64,000 nucleotides of DNA. Source: Dictyophora rubrovolvata (taxonomy: Eukaryota; Basidiomycota; Agaricomycetes; Phallales; Phallaceae). The stretch is from positions 2,046,001-2,110,000 of the forward strand of contig CP114121.1 of the NCBI GenBank assembly GCA_029959195.1, written 5' to 3'. A program made the translations under genes and the position numbers. The notes under the pieces were generated by a model, which saw only the letters and a list, made by a program, of their open reading frames with translations, was not told the DNA's origin and searched no databases. Below are positions 28,073 to 56,800 of this stretch, piece after piece. Numbering within the stretch: the stretch's first letter is position 1; each line of letters starts with the position of its first letter.

Positions 28073-28821
28073 CTTTGTGTCTGTCCAAGTCTAGGAGCGG
28101 AGTGTGAATATACAAATATCTGGATAGTAGTATCTTGGATACCAGACCTTCAACCGTTTCAAATTGGCAAGAAATAAGATAAGAATTATCTCGAGATTTT
28201 TTTTAAATAACTTTTGGTGTTATAAAATATTAGCATTAAACTCCATTGTTTCATGAGTTATTGGCAACTCGAGGTGAAGTGTTTACACTAAGCGAATCGG
28301 CTAACTAGACTCGGCAAAGACTAGCTTTAAGCTTCTAAGGTATGCAGAGATAATACCACTCATGGATCTCTTGACGAGCGCCAGCATTTTGGAGACATGA
28401 GATACAAGAAGATATGTATAAGAAAACCGATCGGCTAATAATATCGACCGATTGGCCCCTTGTGATTAGCAAAAACGACGCTCTTCGTTGGGAAGTGGAA
28501 TACTACTGAAGTAAGAAAATATGACTGTGTACCCGCATTTACAATTCAATTGTGCATGTGCTATGTATGTAACGTGCAGTCTCGACCCAATTCGTGCAGA
28601 TTTAATTAAGAATTGGGATGCAAGAACCAACTTGCACAACTTGAGAAACGGATTTTCCGGAAAACAAGAAAAATACCCGACTCCGACGTGTCACGGCTCT
28701 GTCACGGCGTGACGTTTTACATAAAGAAGCAGAACTTCCGCCGGAAACCTCCGCACAGTTTTTTTCAAGTTTGACTCGCTATCATCATCCGCGCTTGGAG
28801 ACTGACTGGGACAACCTCTTT
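28073..28821. other. Divergent promoter region of MRPL34 and CPA1
   Basis: This 749-bp region separates divergent starts. Near 28690-28714 it has two GTCACGG repeats followed by the inverted form CGTGACG, and a TTGACTCG (about 28771) resembling the Gcn4/Cpc1 half-site TGACTC used in amino-acid starvation control. The motifs are seen directly; their function is inferred. Confidence 0.45.
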
Positions 28822-28954
28822 ATGCCATTTACCCAAAGCACTCGAGACGAGTAAGCGGCTCTTTTTTTTGCTCCCTTGAAGATTATCTTAATGATCCACG
28901 TCTTGTGGTTTGTGCAGTTACATCAGCGACCACATCTATAGCCTCGTGAATTGA
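28822..28954 (+). CDS. Arginine attenuator peptide uORF (two exons)
   Basis: This is an upstream ORF in the CPA1 leader. Exon 1 (28822-28850) encodes MPFTQSTRD plus two bases, and exon 2 (28918-28954) completes it with DYISDHIYSLVN, then TGA. The second part matches the arginine attenuator peptide of fungal CPA1/arg-2 (Neurospora core DYLSDHLWRALN), including the Asp equivalent to Asp12 that is essential for arginine-dependent ribosome stalling. The Trp19 position is Tyr here, and the final Ala is absent, giving 21 residues instead of 24. The donor is GA|GTAAGC and the acceptor TTTGTGCAG. Without splicing the frame stops at GAG-TAA, a 10-codon peptide lacking the core. The uORF stop is 29 nt before the CPA1 ATG. 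By analogy it represses CPA1 when arginine is high. Confidence 0.85.
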
Positions 28955-28983
28955 AAGCTCCCTTTTATTTTTTCTTCTTTGCC

Positions 28984-30449
28984 ATGTTGTCTCTACGGGG
29001 TTTAAAGCAGTTACCTGTGACTCGATTATCCAGGGCGTTAGCTACGGCTGTAGCCAATAAGAATGCTACCCTTTACCTTGAAACCGGGGAATTTTTTAAA
29101 GGAAAATTATTCGGTGCTCCGAGAAGCATTTTCGGAGAAACTGTATTCTCAACATCCATAACTTCATGTGATCTTTCACTTTAATTAAAATTATGCGCAA
29201 GGTACTTATCGTTGTTTAGATACCGAATCCATGACAGACCCCTCTTATCGCGGTCAAATCTTGGTCTTTACCACGCCTCTAATAGGGAACTATGGAGTTC
29301 CCAAGAATCAAACTGCCATTGATTCCCGAGACGTAGGTGTTGTTCTTGAGTCTAAAGGAATCCAATGTGCCGGCGTTGTTGTGGCTGATGTTGCCGATGA
29401 TTATTCGCACCATTCTGCGGTTGAATCTCTTCATTCTTGGTGTCTTCGCCATAATATCCCTGGCATCACAGGTGTCGATACGCGAGCGGTGACCACCCTT
29501 TTACGTGATCAAGGGACCACCCTTGGAAAAGTGGCAGTAGGTTTAGATGCTTTAACTCCCCCTGTCCCTGAAGAATATTGGGATCCTTCGAAAGAGAACT
29601 TGGTGGATCAAGTATCAACACGTGAATCTTATGTTCTTAATCCGTGTGGCGACGTAAAAATTGCCGTATTGGACTTCGGTGTCAAAGCTAACATACTTCG
29701 GTCTCTCGTCCGAAGGGGAGCATCCGTCACTGTTCTTCCTTGGAACTTTGATTTCAATGCTATTCGGGACAACTTTGACGGTCTATTCTTAACTAATGGA
29801 CCAGGTGATCCAACGTATTGCATTGAAGCTGCGATGAATGTCAGGCGCACGATTCAGGAGTGGCATAAACCTATTTTTGGAATATGTATGGGTCACCAGA
29901 TCCTTGGTATTGCTGCTGGACTGGATGCCTATAGAATGACGTTTGGAAACAGGGGTCATAATCAACCTGTGCTAGCTCTCGCATCATCTGGCTCCATCAA
30001 GGCAGGCAGAGTCTATGTCACGAGGTAAATCGCTCACCTAGCATTCCATGACATTAGATTGACGATTTTCTTCCCAAGCCAAAACCATCAATATGCACTC
30101 CAATTGCAGGACCCCTTCCCTGAAGGCTGGGAGCCTTTCTTCATCAATTGCAATGATTCTTCAGTAGAAGGAATTAAATCTACTGCCGGGTCCGGTAAGA
30201 AGGTCTGGGGTGTTCAATTTCATCCGGAGAGTGCAGGCGGTCCTCTTGATACTATCGAGGTTTTTCCCCCTTTCATTAGTTCTTCTCTCGTCCCTTTTCT
30301 AAGTCTATGCAAATCAGATGTTCACCGACTTCGTCAATGAATGCCGCGCCACAAAAGTCGCAATCAAGCCTGTTATCACGCCACAACTAACTGAACATAG
30401 CCGAATTTTCATACCGAATACCCGTCGACCTGTGGCAGCCACCGCTTAA
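28984..30449 (+). CDS. CPA1: Carbamoyl-phosphate synthase, arginine-specific small (glutaminase) subunit
   Basis: This subunit hydrolyses glutamine and channels ammonia to the Cpa2 large subunit to make carbamoyl phosphate for arginine synthesis. After a short basic presequence-like N-terminus (MLSLRGLKQLPVTRLSRALA), the CPSase small-chain domain appears: NATLYLETGEFFKGKLFGA, GQILVFTTPLIGNYGVP, IPGITGVDTRAVTTLLRDQG. The class I glutamine amidotransferase domain follows, with LTNGPGDPTYC, the nucleophile Cys in GICMGHQILG, FGNRGHNQPV and the catalytic His/Glu in GVQFHPESAGG. The C-terminus is TDFVNECRATKVA ... HSRIFIPNTRRPVAATA. Introns are near 29168-29219, 30026-30079 and 30260-30317. The main start is the first ATG after the attenuator uORF. 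Translation is probably set by arginine through that uORF. Confidence 0.95.
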
Positions 30450-31346: not shown

Positions 31347-34300
31347 ATGGACATACCTCGAATAAAATACCATGTTGCACAATCTGGGAGAGCATTTGAA
31401 CGTCTTTTGAAAGGTTTTTTTTTTGCAGTTGTTGCATATCTATTTCTGTTCAGTGTCTCACGAGATTTCCAGAGCATTCATTCACAGAATTGGATGATGC
31501 CATACGCGCAAAATTGGATCTTGATTCATCGTTACAACTTCAAATGTATCGTGTTCAAGATGGCGTGAAATATGATTTGGAAGATGGTATGTATTTTCAT
31601 GGTTGAGGATCACACTTTGGTCTTAACGGTATATATCCTAGAGGACGATTTTGCAGCCATGAAATCAGCCGCCTACGCGTCTGACGCGTTTGATGTTCGC
31701 ATAGCATACCAGAAGCGCAAAAACTCCAAACCTGCCTCTAAGAGGTCTTCGACCCCCTCAAGGTCACGTCGTGTGTCAATTGTTCTCCCGGAAAAAGACG
31801 CAGACACCGTACGAAAGACTATACAACAGTCTCCACAACCGACTGATAGTGATAATGAGGCACCGATTATTGAGGCCCCTGCTCCTTTAAAAAAGTCTAG
31901 ACAAAATTCTCAATCGGCCGCAGACCCGCCCCCTGCACAACCCTCGATTTTGAAAAAAAGGAAGCCTGCTTCTGATACCAGCGAAGATACTCCCGAAGCC
32001 AAAGAGCCACCCACAAAAAGGCATAAACCCGAGAAGCCTTCAAAAAAAAGCGATGATTCCACAAAAGTCTCTTCTAAGCCCAAGTCAACTTCTGTCAAAC
32101 GCAAGTCATCGAGCGACAAACTACAAAAGACTGTTTCCGAAACAGAGTCTGAATTATCTGACACGTCGAAGAAAGCTAAGACAAAACCCGTTGAGCCTCA
32201 AAGGGATGCGGACGTTGATAATCCTCCTTCTAAAAAGGCTAAAACGTCTAAAACAAAGCATGACGGTAAGACTGCTTTATTTTATTTGGTTTTCCTAGTT
32301 ACTATGATTGCATTGCAGGCGAGTCGAAGTCTACAACTAAGCTTGTTTCAAAGGCCGTGAAATCTGTAACTAAAGCTGTCAAGTCTTGTAAGTTTTTTTC
32401 TTGCCTTATCTTTGTGAATACTTCCATTTTATTAAACGTGCACACATAGCTGTAGTTGAAGATCCGCTACCTTCTGACCTAAGCTATGCTGAACTTAAGA
32501 GCAGAATATTGGAGCGCGGAAAGTCCAGACGTAACGAAGAAGAAAATTCTCCTGCTACTGAGGAGAATTCCGGAGAGAAAACAAAGAAGTCCAAGGAAAA
32601 TACTGATTCTTCAACTTCATCGGAACCTGCTCAAGTCAACGGAAAGACAAAGGACGGGGAAAAAAAGAAGGCCGCTAAAGAAGACGACATATCAAAGAAA
32701 AGCAAAAAGTCCGTATCTAAAGACAGCGCTAAAGATCAGACGAAGGAAAAAGAAACGCCAGCTGATACCACCAAAGACAAAACCAAGGATAAGAAAATAG
32801 TTAAAAAGGCGGTGGTCACTAATTCCTCGTCCAAAACTACGGCGGACTCGGCGGCAGCGAACAAAGGATCCACCAAAAGCCTTGATGTACCCCCGGTATC
32901 TTCCAACGAGCAACATAAGACGATCGAGACTCTCGTAGCCGAAATAGAGACCTCATTGAAAAACCCAAACACTGTCAGTAAAAACGACAAGAGCTCGATA
33001 CCACGGGCCTCGACATCCCAGGCGGGATCACATCGAGAGTCCACTATTCCCATTTTACCTCCGAAATCGAAGTCACTGCAGGTCGTTATGCAAAGTAATG
33101 ATGAAGAATCAGAATCAGAGTCGGAATCGGAATCTTCTAGCTCTAGCTCTAGCTCTAACTCAGATGGTGAGGATGTTGTTCCTAATCGGAAATCTTCGCT
33201 GGCTAAACCGAGCCTCTCCGTTGAGTCTGAGCTCACAAGGCAGAGCGTGAACTTGGATAATGTTGATCTTGATGCACTCATTCGTGGGCCCCCTGCCAAG
33301 ACTCTTGTTGCAAGTTTGTCAATGTTGGAAGAAGAAGAAGTGCGCGGGGGAGAAGAGAAACGTGAGGGAAGTGGGGTTGAGGAGGAGGAAGAAGAAGAAG
33401 AAGAAGTAGAGACTAAACATTCTATGATCCCTGAAGCTGCTCGCCGGCTTAGTGATGCAAGGAGACGAGTTGTAGAAAACGATGATGATGACGACGAAGA
33501 TGATGACGACCCTTCTGATTCAGACAGTCCACCGCCTATTAATGCACCTCCTTATGAAGCAGTGTCCCTTAAAGAGACAAAGGACAAGGGTGTTGACGAA
33601 GATTCTCTGACCAAGCTTGCAACTCCAACTGTGGACAACAATTCATCTACTGAGTCTACTTCCGCCGAGGGCGGACCCGGCACACCCGTTGCAGGCACTA
33701 CTCTCAATCAAACAGAGACTGAGCCACCGTCAAATCTAGGTCAGCCCTTAGATACGTCCCTTGAGCCTCCCGCCGTTGAAGTTAATCCCCCTGCTGACCA
33801 ACGACCTATTACTCCCCCACCCGATGATTCACGTCCCCATACGCCAGCACCAGCCACGCCTAAAAAGTCGCCAGGTGCAGCTATTCAATCTACCCCCAAA
33901 ACTCCCCGAACGGTTCAACGAATGAAGGATAAAAAGGGAAACATTCCTGCAGAGAATGGAACGTCTACTACGGCGAATGATGATGATGATGATGACGATG
34001 GCGTACAAGCGACCGTACGACCTGTGCGGGTTATGGCGACACGAGCACGACCCGCGCCGGGGCCTGATGTTGAAGAACTGCCGCTGCCAACGAAAACTTC
34101 CTTAAAGTCGCGTGCTTCTAGTAGACAGCCAGCTTTAGTTCCCGTGTTGGAGAAACGTGTCTTGCGTAGCTCTAGAATGCCGCCTCCCGGGGTTCCCGTA
34201 AAATCTGTCAAATTGAAAGAAAACACCAAAACGAAGAAGAATGCCAAAGAAAGCGAGCCCGAGCAGGAAAAGGCGGACCCCGCTGCAGAGCAATCTCGAG

Positions 34301-34992
34301 AGTCGGTTTTAGGTTCTCAATGGCAAGTTTTGCAGCCGTCACAACCGACGACAGTAACCTCTCCTTCGCAGATTGACGAGTTACGCGATGGTTTCAAAAG
34401 TCCCGAGTTGAGCTCGACGCGATCTGGTTCTCGCAGAAGGGATGAAAATCATGTTGAAAAGCTGGTCGGGTCTACAGAAACATTCATCTCTGATGCTGAT
34501 CGACCACGTTCACCCTTGTTCCTACCTGGTGCCAGCCAGATGTCTCCTTCTCAGCACCGACTCGAACTCGAACTCCTAGGACTAGATGATGGACCGCCTT
34601 CTTCTTTTCTTCAAACTTCTACTACTAAACCTGCTGTTGTTATCGCACCCTCCGAAGCCGAAACTGAACCCGAAAGTGATAGAGAACTCGCCGTACCTAC
34701 ATTGAGCCAGCCACTGAAGTCTATTTTCCCGTCTTTATCAGAGCTTAGCTTTAACAAGTTCCGTCCGTCTTTTCTTATGAAGAATCAAAACCAAAGCCAA
34801 TCTCAACAAAGTCGGGTTGCTCCGAAAACTGCGACCGCGAAGGCTAACGAATCGGAAACAGATGACGATGATAGCGATGATGACGACGATGATAGCAGCA
34901 GTGAATCTGATAAGGGTTCGCATATACCGAAAAATAAACGTGCTGGGGTGGGAGTTGTGAAAAGAGTTAAATCTAGGGGTTTATTACGGTGA
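31347..34992 (+). CDS. Large acidic disordered protein with N-terminal PB1/ubiquitin-like segment
   Basis: No named family was recognised. The first 80 or so residues (MDIPRIKYHVAQSGRAFERL ... LDLDSSLQLQMYRVQDGVKY ... DLEDEDDFAAMKSAAY) read like a PB1 or ubiquitin-like fold, with an acidic OPCA-like loop at DLEDEDD. The rest, about 1,000 residues, is low complexity: Lys/Ser/Glu-rich early, with SE/SD repeats (33110-33165), Glu runs (33375-33410) and Asp runs (33480-33510, 33976-34005, 34859-34895), then a basic end KRAGVGVVKRVKSRGLLR. Such charge blocks are typical of nucleolar or chromatin proteins. Introns lie near 31409-31486, 31587-31640, 32265-32318 and 32389-32449; the last exon is over 2.5 kb. 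An in-frame ATG at 31311 is possible but would overlap the divergent gene's coding sequence. Confidence 0.65.
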
Positions 34993-39521: not shown

Positions 39522-41584
39522 ATGGTCCACCCGCTTTCACATCACGTCCTTCATACTCCCTACATCACTCCCCAAATCCTCCACACAAAGTATGCACATG
39601 TCCCAGAGAACGATGCTCCTAATCGCTGTATGCACTTCTTTCCTGAACCCTACGACGTCATGACTCATTTCACTTTTTTTCACGAACAGTTCTAGGCCAG
39701 GATTTGGAGCACTTTTCTCAAGCTGGCTTTGACATGGACAAGATCCATCTCAAACGCAATGCCCCTCCGGCTGCACTCTATGAAGACGCCATTCGATACG
39801 AAGGTGCTATCATCTCCTCCACCGGTGCCCTCATCAACTTTTCCGGCAAGAAAACAGGCCGCAGTCCAAAAGACAAGCGTATCGTTTACGAGGAATTCAG
39901 CAAGGATCGCATCTGGTGGGGTTCAGTCAACATTAAAATCGACGAACGTGAGTCAGGCGAAAAAAAAAATTCTTCTCGCTTGCCCAATATTAGCACTCAC
40001 GTGACCTCCACTCATCTCATTTCCCATTTTCAATTTTCGTTTTTTTTTTCGAATTCTAATCTCAATTCTAATTATAGACACATTTGAAATTAACCGCGAA
40101 AGAGCTATTGATTATCTGAATACTCGCGAGAACGTATATGTCTTTGATGGCTTCGCCGGCTGGGATCCTAAATACCGTATTAAAGTCCGGGTTATTTGTG
40201 CCAGAGCCTACCATGCTCTCTTCATGCACAACATGCTTATTCGCCCCACCGAGGAAGAATTGGCAAACTTTGGAGAACCAGATTTTATCATCTACAACGC
40301 CGGTCAATTTCCTGCCAATCGTTTCACCAAGGGTATGAGCTCCACAACTTCCGTCGAGATCAACTTTAAACGTATGGAAATGGTCATCCTTGGTACCGAG
40401 TATGCCGGAGAGATGAAGAAGGGTATCTTCTCTGTAATGCACTATCTCCAACCCGTTAGATTCAAGCAATTGTCTCTCCACTCTTCTGCCAATGTCGGCA
40501 TGGAAAAAGGAGACGTTACTCTATTTTTCGGACTGTCCGGAACAGGAAAAACGTCAGTAAATACACCACCACCACCATCATCATCACATGCTCTAAGATC
40601 CGTTCTTTGCTCACACCCCTCTTTTTCTTTTTCTGTAGAACATTGTCCGCCGATCCCCGCCGTCAGTTAATAGGAGATGACGAGCACGTCTGGTCCGAAT
40701 CAGGTGTCTTCAACATCGAAGGTGGCTGTTATGCCAAATGTATTAATCTTTCTCGCGAGAAAGAACCGGAAATCTTCGATGCCGTTCGATTCGGATCTAT
40801 CCTTGAAAACGTAGTCTACAACCCCATTTCTCGAGTATCCGATTACGACGACGTCAGCATTACCGAGAACACTCGATGTGCCTATCCCATCGAGTATATA
40901 CCCAATGCTCGTATTCCCTGCGTTGTCAACTCCCAACCGAAGAATATTATAATGTTGACTTGTGACGCGTACGGTGTGCTACCCCCTGTGTCTAAATTAT
41001 CTCCAGAACAAGCGAGTTATCATTTCTTAGCTGGCTACACATCGTACGTCGCCGTCTCAAATTCATAAATAATCTGTTTTTTTCTTTCTTTCTTTTAACC
41101 GCCTTTTTTTTTGCACAGAAAGACACCAGGAACAGAAGACGGCGTTCTAGAACCCATACCAACCTTCTCAACATGTTACTCCGCCCCATTTATCGTCCTG
41201 CACCCCTCAGAATACGCAACCATGCTCGCCGAGCGCATGGCAAAACATAACGTCGACTGCTGGCTCATCAACACAGGCTGGACAGGCGGCAAATACGGAA
41301 CAGGCAAACGCTGCCCACTCAAATACACCCGAGCCATCGTCGACGCCGTACATGACGGTTCGCTCGCTCAAGCCGAATATGAACATTTTCCGACTTTTAA
41401 TTTGAAGATTCCAACGGCTGTTAATAATGTGCCGAAAGAGTTGTTGAACCCTAGACGTGCTTGGAAGGATGGGGAGGCTTTTGAGAGGGAGGTTCGTAAG
41501 CTTGCGGCCATGTTTCAGAAAGCGTTTGCGTTGTATGAGAAGAATGTCGATGAGAAGGTTAGACTTGCGGGTCCTTCATTATGA
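39522..41584 (+). CDS. PCK1: Phosphoenolpyruvate carboxykinase (ATP)
   Basis: This enzyme makes PEP from oxaloacetate and ATP, the committed step of gluconeogenesis, in the cytosol. Diagnostic blocks: [66 protein letters not shown], the PEPCK-specific P-loop [51 protein letters not shown] and [15 protein letters not shown]. Introns lie near 39632-39692, 39949-40077, 40549-40638 (inside the P-loop at GKT/TLS) and 41043-41119. The first donor (CGCT|GTATGC) is chosen because it joins the leader [17 protein letters not shown]... in phase with [10 protein letters not shown]. The last two exons are more GC-rich and C-biased at third positions than neighbouring genes, as expected for a highly expressed gene. 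The protein is full length, about 560 residues. Confidence 0.95.
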
Positions 41585-53833: not shown

Positions 53834-56800
53834 TCAGGCTACATCGACGCTTCTAAACACCTTCTCAATGACACCATTATGGTGGGTATACCCATTTGCA
53901 GAGAAAACTTTAGACTTCAAAAACGGAGTAGTATCATAAATATCATGCTCTTTCGCCTGAGACAAAAAGTTAGCATCTGTCGAAAATCGGAATAAGAAGA
54001 CTTACTCGTTCATCGAGCTCCGAAACATTGATAGAGATTTTGTCAGGCTGCTCCCGTTTCTTTAGCTGGTGCATCCGCACACGCTCTTTAATCAATTGAC
54101 CAAGCAAGAAAGCTAACAGTTCCTCATGGTCTTTGGCATGGGATAGATACTTCCTGAATCCTCGCTCCAGACTCTTCCTGATAGAGGTCTTCTGAGCACT
54201 AACGAAGCTTCCGACTGCAACTTGAATAGCAAGATCGACATCGTCTGCACGGACGTATTCACGTAAATGCATTTTCGCGCTTGCTTCGGCCATCCGAATC
54301 ATACTTTCAAGATGCCGGACAGTGATCGGAAATGATCCAGTAGCAAGTGATTCACGTCGAAGATCGGCAAAAAGACGAGAAATTTTCTCTTGATCGAGGT
54401 CGTGCAATACCGGATGAACCCTGTCTCGAGCGTACATTATATATTTGCGGAGCAAATCTTGAGGAATTATCTAGGCATATCGCTTATTAAAAACAAGTCC
54501 GTAAGAAAAAGAGGGAACCATATCCACTCACATCTGCATCTTGTATCGAGCCGACATCCATTTCCTCCGTGTCTTTCTCAAACTTGGGATGACTCCTGAG
54601 ATGACTATCGACAACAAAACGAGCCAAAAGTTCGTCAGCAACAGGATCTACCGTATCTCTGACTACACATAGAACATCGAAACGCGATAAAATAGGTTCC
54701 GTGAGCTCGACATTCTGCTGGAAAGGGATAGTTGAATTGTAGCGTCCCCGAATCGGATTGGCCGCAGCAATGATAGCACAGCGCGCTTGGAGGGACGTCA
54801 CAATACCAGCTTTTGCGATTGAAATAGATTGCTGTTCCATAGCCTCGTGAATTGATGTTCTGTCAGCATCGTTCATCTTGTCGAATTCGTCGATTAGACA
54901 GTGCCCTTTATCCGCGAGTACCAGGGCACCGCCTTCCAACGTCCATTCACGTGTAACGGGATCTTTGCGCACACTTGCCGTTAAACCAACAGCAGAAGCA
55001 CCTTGACCAGTGGTGAAGACAGCCCGATGTGCCGTCTTTTCAATGTACTTCAAGAATTGAGATTTGGCAGTACCTGGATCGCCGAGTAAAAGAACATTGA
55101 TATCACCACGAATACGATGTTTTCGTTTGATGTCTTTTGCTTCGCCACCAAAAAGAGAAAGAGCAAGAGCCGTCTTGATGTTTTCGTGGCCGTATATGGA
55201 CGGGGCAATGGATTTGAAGAGTCGTTTACTAATTCGCTCATCGCGAGCCAATGCACGAATTTGTTTTTCATCCTCCTCGGTTAATCGAAAAGCAGCAAAT
55301 AAATCTTCCTTTTTATTGATGTGGTTAGCTTCAATTATTGTTGAGAAGACAGGGAACCCGTTCTTTGAATTCAGCGCGGCATCGAAATTGTTGCGGTATA
55401 CGCCCGTGACTTCCTATATGAATGCCTGATTGAGTGTCGTCAAGGGAGGATGGGGTTATGAACTTACAACTTCCTCCCCCGGTTTCGCGGAATCAATAAG
55501 ATCCCATAGGAGAATAACTTCTCTATGACGGGGAAGTCGCCCTGCAGGGACCGAGCCTGGGGATTCCTGTAATGTCATCTTTTGATAGTTCCGATAAACG
55601 GTTTGCTCCGAATTGACTTGGAAGGGTCCTTTACTCTCACAACTTGTACAAAAGTTGATTTTCACTTCTGTAGTCGTGTCTTGATAAAAAGGACCCAGTG
55701 TGGTGCCACATTTCATACAATCGAATTTGACGTATTTCAGCTGAGGAAAAACCCCACTTCGGCGAGTGACGACACCTGAAACGCGAACGAGACTGTTCAA
55801 ATGCGAACGGCGCAGATCTCGTAAAGTCGAAGAAGTTGGAAGTTCTGTGATACGGACGTGAATCTCGGAATGTATACGCTCGTAGTTCGGGTAATATAAA
55901 AGAATGGCTCGCAATGCCACTGAATCGAAGATGCCGAGCATTGGAGCAGGACAATTTACCAAGAAATAGGCAAGGATTGCTTTGGAATCGGCTAGGTGCA
56001 AGTACGAAACTTCTAGAGACTCCGAGTTTACTGTGTAAAGTGAAGATAAGGAAAAACTGCTTCGCTGGTAAAGGTTTATAACTCTTACATTCTCCGAGAG
56101 TGCGGATACGTTGACCGTAAACACTTGTACCATGATCATCAACGTAGGTCATAAGGAAGTTTAGGAAGTGCTTTTCAATCGCTCGTTGCACGCTTTCCGT
56201 CGCTATCCAAGCTGCTATTGAATCAGCTTTAATGTCACCGAGATGTTCCAAAGGAATTTCCTGTGGCAAGAATAATTAACAAAAATAGCAAAGGCTACGG
56301 AGCTACGACTCACGTCCTCGATGCCTTCTGCATCATCCATGTCCTTCCGTTCGTCATAGAGACGACGAGTACGTTTCTTCATACCAGCCAGTAAACCGCC
56401 TTGAGTATCAACTTCTTCATCCTCATCATCATCCTGCAAAAAAGCTGGCGCTCGGCTTCGTCGTGCAGCGCGATCACCTCTCCTTTGAGAACTTCGATCG
56501 CGTCTGGCCATCTCAGCTTCAGCAGCGCGACGCGCATTTGCAGATAACGCTTCGTATTCATTCTCGTCGTCTAAATCCACAGCATCGTAGGTATCCAATC
56601 GAGCATTAGCAGCGTAATCACTAAGGTAAAATTTTGACATGAAAACCCTCTTACTGCAAAAACAGAGGTACTACTTTTGCTTACTCTTGAAGGATATTCT
56701 CGTCAAACAAATCCTCTCCATCCCCTTCTCCATCGTCCAAAACACCTTCCTCTGCATCTGGAACCAGATCTCTATCACTAAGACCGTCATCGGTATCGGA

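Follow-up and report, generated by a model that had tools for sequence, protein, structure and literature searches.

A predicted intron divides an arginine attenuator peptide-like uORF before CPA1 of Dictyophora rubrovolvata

The arginine attenuator peptide (AAP) is a classic example of a eukaryotic sensor that acts as a nascent peptide, and in Neurospora crassa the arg-2 AAP lies before the carbamoyl-phosphate synthase (CPS) small-subunit gene. A leader of similar appearance was noticed before CPA1 in a 64-kb stretch of Dictyophora rubrovolvata DNA (64,000 nucleotides, hereafter the window), part of a 28.24 Mb genome in 11 contigs. Here the peptide appears only when an intron is removed from the reading frame. 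The locus therefore raises the questions of whether the small uORF is an AAP and, if so, whether its intron acts as a switch on arginine sensing. We find a convincing AAP-like uORF, as judged from its sequence, with a predicted ordinary intron at the key codon and Tyr in place of Trp; a splicing switch is unproven.

The CPA1 gene and its leader

We identified CPA1 at 28984-30449 on the plus strand, encoding the glutamine-hydrolysing CPS small subunit (433 aa). Three coding introns, at 29168-29219, 30025-30078 and 30260-30317 of the plus strand, were inferred from frame and conservation. The product scored 385.5 bits against TIGR01368 (cut-off 307.35), and we read its N terminus as a basic, mitochondrial-type leader. 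Genome-wide, PF00988 gave four matches that fall in two genes, CPA1 and one place on contig C1. In translation, the small-chain locus on C1 appears to run on into a large subunit, which we read as the pyrimidine (URA2-type) fusion. Thus, CPA1 of the window is the stand-alone, arginine-type enzyme.

Exon 1 of the uORF (28822-28850, plus strand) begins with ATG and encodes MPFTQSTRD, followed by GA, the first two bases of the critical Asp codon. The predicted intron (28851-28917, plus strand) is 67 nt long and in phase 2, reads GTAAGC...TTAAT...GTGCAG, and has its branch-like TTAAT starting 30 nt before the intron end. Exon 2 (28918-28954, plus strand) completes the Asp codon as GA + T across the junction, continues with YISDHIYSLVN and closes at a TGA stop (28952-28954). 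A spacer of 29 nt (28955-28983, plus strand) separates this stop from the CPA1 start. Joining 28822-28850 to 28918-28954 gives the 21-residue peptide MPFTQSTRDDYISDHIYSLVN, and the unspliced frame from 28822 reads MPFTQSTRDE and ends after 10 codons at an in-frame TAA inside the donor (28852-28854). The original prediction had given the same two exons with their coordinates, the same spliced peptide and the same closure of the unspliced frame, and all of these were reproduced. A short uORF of this kind in the leader of an arginine-type CPS small-subunit gene is found in the spliced leader only, that is, in a predicted transcript.

Two further products of the same region can be drawn. With the intron retained, a second short uORF, MIHVLWFVQLHQRPHL, occupies 28891-28941 on the plus strand. 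In addition, the acceptor is tandem, with two CAG triplets 9 nt apart (28915-28926), and use of the downstream one (ending at 28926) would delete Tyr-Ile-Ser in frame and leave a hypothetical shortened exon 2 at 28927-28954 of the plus strand.

The uORF start has the context AACCTCTTT-ATG, with T at -3, and the CPA1 start has G at -3. The uORF context is thus weak and would permit leaky scanning. Nine further ATGs lie upstream of the uORF, at 28342-28618, and for 28822 to be the first AUG, transcription would have to start downstream of 28618.

Likeness to the arginine attenuator peptide

When the spliced peptide alone was searched against 177,635 distinct PDB sequences (E up to 10), the only match was 2xl1_A, named "arginine attenuator peptide", at an E-value of 0.85 that is not significant alone. 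The PDB entry names only the molecule, which we take to be the Neurospora crassa arg-2 AAP. Residues 7-21 of the peptide align with residues 9-23 of 2xl1_A, and seven of these 15 are identical (the equivalents of Thr9, Asp12, Tyr13, Ser15, Asp16, His17 and Asn23). Leu14 and Leu18 of 2xl1_A are replaced by Ile. In N. crassa numbering, Asp10-Tyr11 of the spliced peptide take the places of Asp12 and Tyr13, and Tyr17 stands at the place of Trp19. The alignment agrees with the comparison made in the original prediction, in which Asp12, Tyr13 and Asp16 were kept, Trp19 was Tyr and the last residue was absent.

Could such a likeness arise by chance in an untranslated leader? The PDB E-value would suit this explanation, and so would the frequency of the core codon pattern taken alone (TAYMTNWSNGAYCAYMTN), which occurs at 8 places in the genome versus 8 for the reversed control. 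The core-motif count does not discriminate and was rejected as evidence. The seven other core-motif sites, read by eye, include none at the PF00988 places. Because the core pattern is not rare, what counts is that it sits within a short spliced ORF immediately ahead of CPA1, the very gene under the control of known AAPs. We scored short ORFs of 15-40 codons, unspliced or spliced (donor GT[AG]NG, acceptor YAG, intron 45-100 nt), against the 15 residues of 2xl1_A. The uORF peptide scored 46, the runner-up among the 609 plus-strand candidates of the window 31, and the best minus-strand candidate 26 (n = 686); the simulated maximum was 32 (19,017 candidates from 30 simulated 64-kb strands). Without splicing, the score of the uORF against the AAP fell from 46 to 6. 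These comparisons of sequence confirm that the likeness of the uORF to the AAP is not chance, and we consider a fortuitous resemblance very improbable indeed.

The leader itself was scanned in a more permissive way, allowing all GT-AG introns between 40 and 150 nt and all peptides between 8 and 40 residues in the 500 nt before a gene. Before CPA1 there were 34 candidates, and the second best (23) is this uORF again, spliced at the downstream acceptor. Nothing AAP-like was found in the 500 nt before the URA2-type gene, where the best of 81 candidates scored 18 (here the 500 nt ended just before position 1350 of L003, beside an ATG at 1353). The RNA fold of the CPA1 leader (28780-28983) is not unusual, with a z of 1.31 and 186 of 200 shuffles folding at least as well, and neither helps nor hurts the AAP reading. 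No fungal relatives were found: the viral contigs gave 0 loci, and the best 80 of 559 genome-contig relatives all had bacterial titles.

The replacement of Trp by Tyr is the real weak point of the AAP reading. A passage of PMC3130931 lists Trp19 as critical for stalling in Neurospora; it also names "Lys14", where 2xl1_A has Leu. Given Tyr at the Trp19 place, we file the uORF as an AAP-like variant and not as a plain AAP member. It may descend from an AAP and have lost its arginine response through the replacement of Trp, persisting only as a constitutive weak uORF. We regard such a loss as unlikely, since the remaining core residues (Asp, Tyr, Ile for Leu, Ser, Asp and His) persist across the splice junction, which suggests continued selection, and Tyr is an aromatic replacement for Trp, although neither point is decisive. 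The missing last residue probably matters less, because arrest persists when the stop of the Neurospora AAP is moved towards the N terminus, according to a passage of PMC13183943.

The intron and the idea of a splicing switch

The original prediction held further that the intron switches the peptide and adds a splicing layer. Its first premise stands, as an AAP-like uORF does precede CPA1 and splicing is needed for the leader to encode the core of this uORF, so that retention would disable the peptide. The claim of a switch was not borne out when the intron was compared with others in the window. We chose 16 introns by frame continuity from four conserved genes, CPA1 and three that we read as PCK1, MCM2 and RNR2 from their Pfam matches to PEP carboxykinase, MCM protein and ribonucleotide reductase small chain. 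A PCK1 intron near 39630 was left out, as its position is uncertain. Donors were scored with a matrix made from the 15 other introns, which therefore includes these 15 themselves and excludes the uORF intron. The uORF donor scored 7.4, with the 15 other inferred introns at 2.55-9.2, and it exceeds all three donors of the CPA1 coding introns (5.4, 6.03 and 2.55). The length of the uORF intron is likewise inside the range of the inferred introns (52-130 nt).

The stop inside the donor is equally ordinary. Nine of the 16 inferred introns would bring an in-frame stop if retained, and the same in-frame donor TAA occurs in two of the 15 others, MCM2 intron 1 and CPA1 intron 2; the former shares the donor hexamer, the phase and the in-frame TAA of the uORF intron. 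The window has 96 GTAAG sites when both strands are counted; read in phase 2, all 96 gave an in-frame stop, versus 8 and 9 for phases 0 and 1. A phase 2 donor beginning with GTAA must read NNG-TAA, and the stop is therefore automatic and no sign of design. In combination, neither the splice sites nor the in-frame stop of the uORF intron stand out from the 15 other introns of these four genes in the window.

MCM2 intron 1 (56621-56684, minus strand) also has an exon ending in GA before its GTAAGC donor, with an Asp codon completed across the phase 2 join. Its junction reads Gln-Asp-Asp-Tyr, a near-repeat of the uORF junction that we take as coincidence.

In a regulated switch, a change in intron retention, or in the acceptor used (28917, with Tyr-Ile-Ser kept, or 28926, with it lost), would turn the arginine sensing of CPA1 on or off under particular physiological conditions. 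Several observations are compatible with it: retention destroys the core, and it is the splice junction that forms the critical Asp codon. Moreover, intron retention is common and condition-dependent in the basidiomycete Cryptococcus, according to a passage of PMC5006051, and in passages of PMC7049704 two repressed Cryptococcus genes pair conserved uORFs with 5′ introns, which are associated there with alternative splicing or intronic non-coding RNAs. The same source counts leader introns in 887 C. neoformans genes. The switch is thus conceivable, and leader introns are not rare. However, the donor, length and acceptor of the uORF intron are ordinary, its donor outscores those of all three CPA1 coding introns, and its in-frame stop follows from phase. 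Nothing in the sequence favours regulated over constitutive splicing, and we judge on/off control of arginine sensing through uORF splicing to be quite unlikely. If it were true, the cell would obtain its nascent-peptide sensor only once the spliceosome had joined the two parts of the key aspartate codon.

We consider it very probable that the locus is a fungal AAP uORF interrupted by an ordinary spliceosomal intron whose removal is probably constitutive. If splicing limits CPA1 anywhere, its sequence makes coding intron 3 a more likely place than the uORF. Among the 16 introns, that intron (30260-30317) has the lowest score, 2.55, with a very weak inferred donor, GTTTTT.

Probable working and known systems

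Most likely, we infer, the uORF is a real AAP that acts by arginine-dependent ribosome stalling together with leaky scanning. In published accounts of AAPs, ribosomes scanning at low arginine pass over the weak start codon of the uORF; when arginine is abundant, the growing peptide arrests the ribosome on the uORF stop codon, and this stall also triggers NMD (passages of PMC11550727 and PMC7969011). By analogy, the leader intron would be removed along with the other CPA1 introns, as its splice sites and the restored peptide suggest. Most scanning ribosomes would then bypass the weak uORF AUG at low arginine and translate CPA1, as the start context and the known AAPs suggest. At high arginine the nascent peptide would stall the ribosome at the uORF stop, block scanning and promote NMD. 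Retention of the intron would yield an arginine-blind mRNA, which we regard as a by-product of the intron position rather than as demonstrated control.

Like the N. crassa arg-2 AAP, the uORF is placed before a CPS small-subunit gene and keeps the Asp12-Tyr13 core. It differs in having 21 residues versus 24, with nothing after the Asn23 equivalent and Tyr for Trp19. The split by an intron is a feature of the uORF described here, the Neurospora AAP being compared as a peptide only.

The Saccharomyces cerevisiae CPA1 uORF shares the target gene and the weak start context, which in yeast is described as poor and as allowing leaky scanning (passage of PMC7969011). From the primer and the description of the Asp13Asn change in that passage, we read back TCQDYIS for yeast, which over this stretch only resembles STRDDYIS here; the residue before the critical Asp is Gln in yeast and Asp in our peptide. 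Asp13Asn abolishes the yeast arginine response, and Asp13 is the counterpart of the Asp created by splicing (PMC7969011, same passage).

The basidiomycetes Cryptococcus neoformans and deneoformans likewise carry an AAP uORF in their CPA1 homologue, compared here by description only. Passages of PMC7049704 report that this uORF is strongly occupied by ribosomes and the main ORF repressed, and that the mRNA is 5-fold up in a upf1 mutant, which links it to NMD.

At present the locus is mainly a well-placed new example of an AAP, known from sequence alone. Its sequence, frame and position and the identity of the downstream gene are established, and the start of transcription, the splicing, the translation and the response to arginine are predicted. 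Because the intron splits the critical codon, scans of unspliced leaders can miss uORFs of this kind. The locus also provides a naturally occurring Trp-to-Tyr change against which the AAP stalling rule can be tested, and allows direct tests of whether splicing affects nascent-peptide control. Hood et al. 2007 is the main survey of these uORFs, and an intron in those of basidiomycetes may have been published already. No paper matched exact phrases describing a uORF that contains an intron, and such an intron in an AAP uORF is undescribed in passages of PMC2075485, PMC7049704, PMC9604717, PMC3564994 and PMC5487733, a set outside which the main survey lies.

Regarding the wider setting, ARAGORN (bacterial code) and Rfam (gathering threshold) gave no matches in the 64-kb window. 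In six-frame searches, 26 stretches matched hydrophobins and 9 matched DUF6534, families that point to a mushroom-forming basidiomycete (agaricomycete). Downstream of CPA1, we noted an open frame of 866 aa (32392-34992) with a very high content of Ser, Asp, Glu and Lys.
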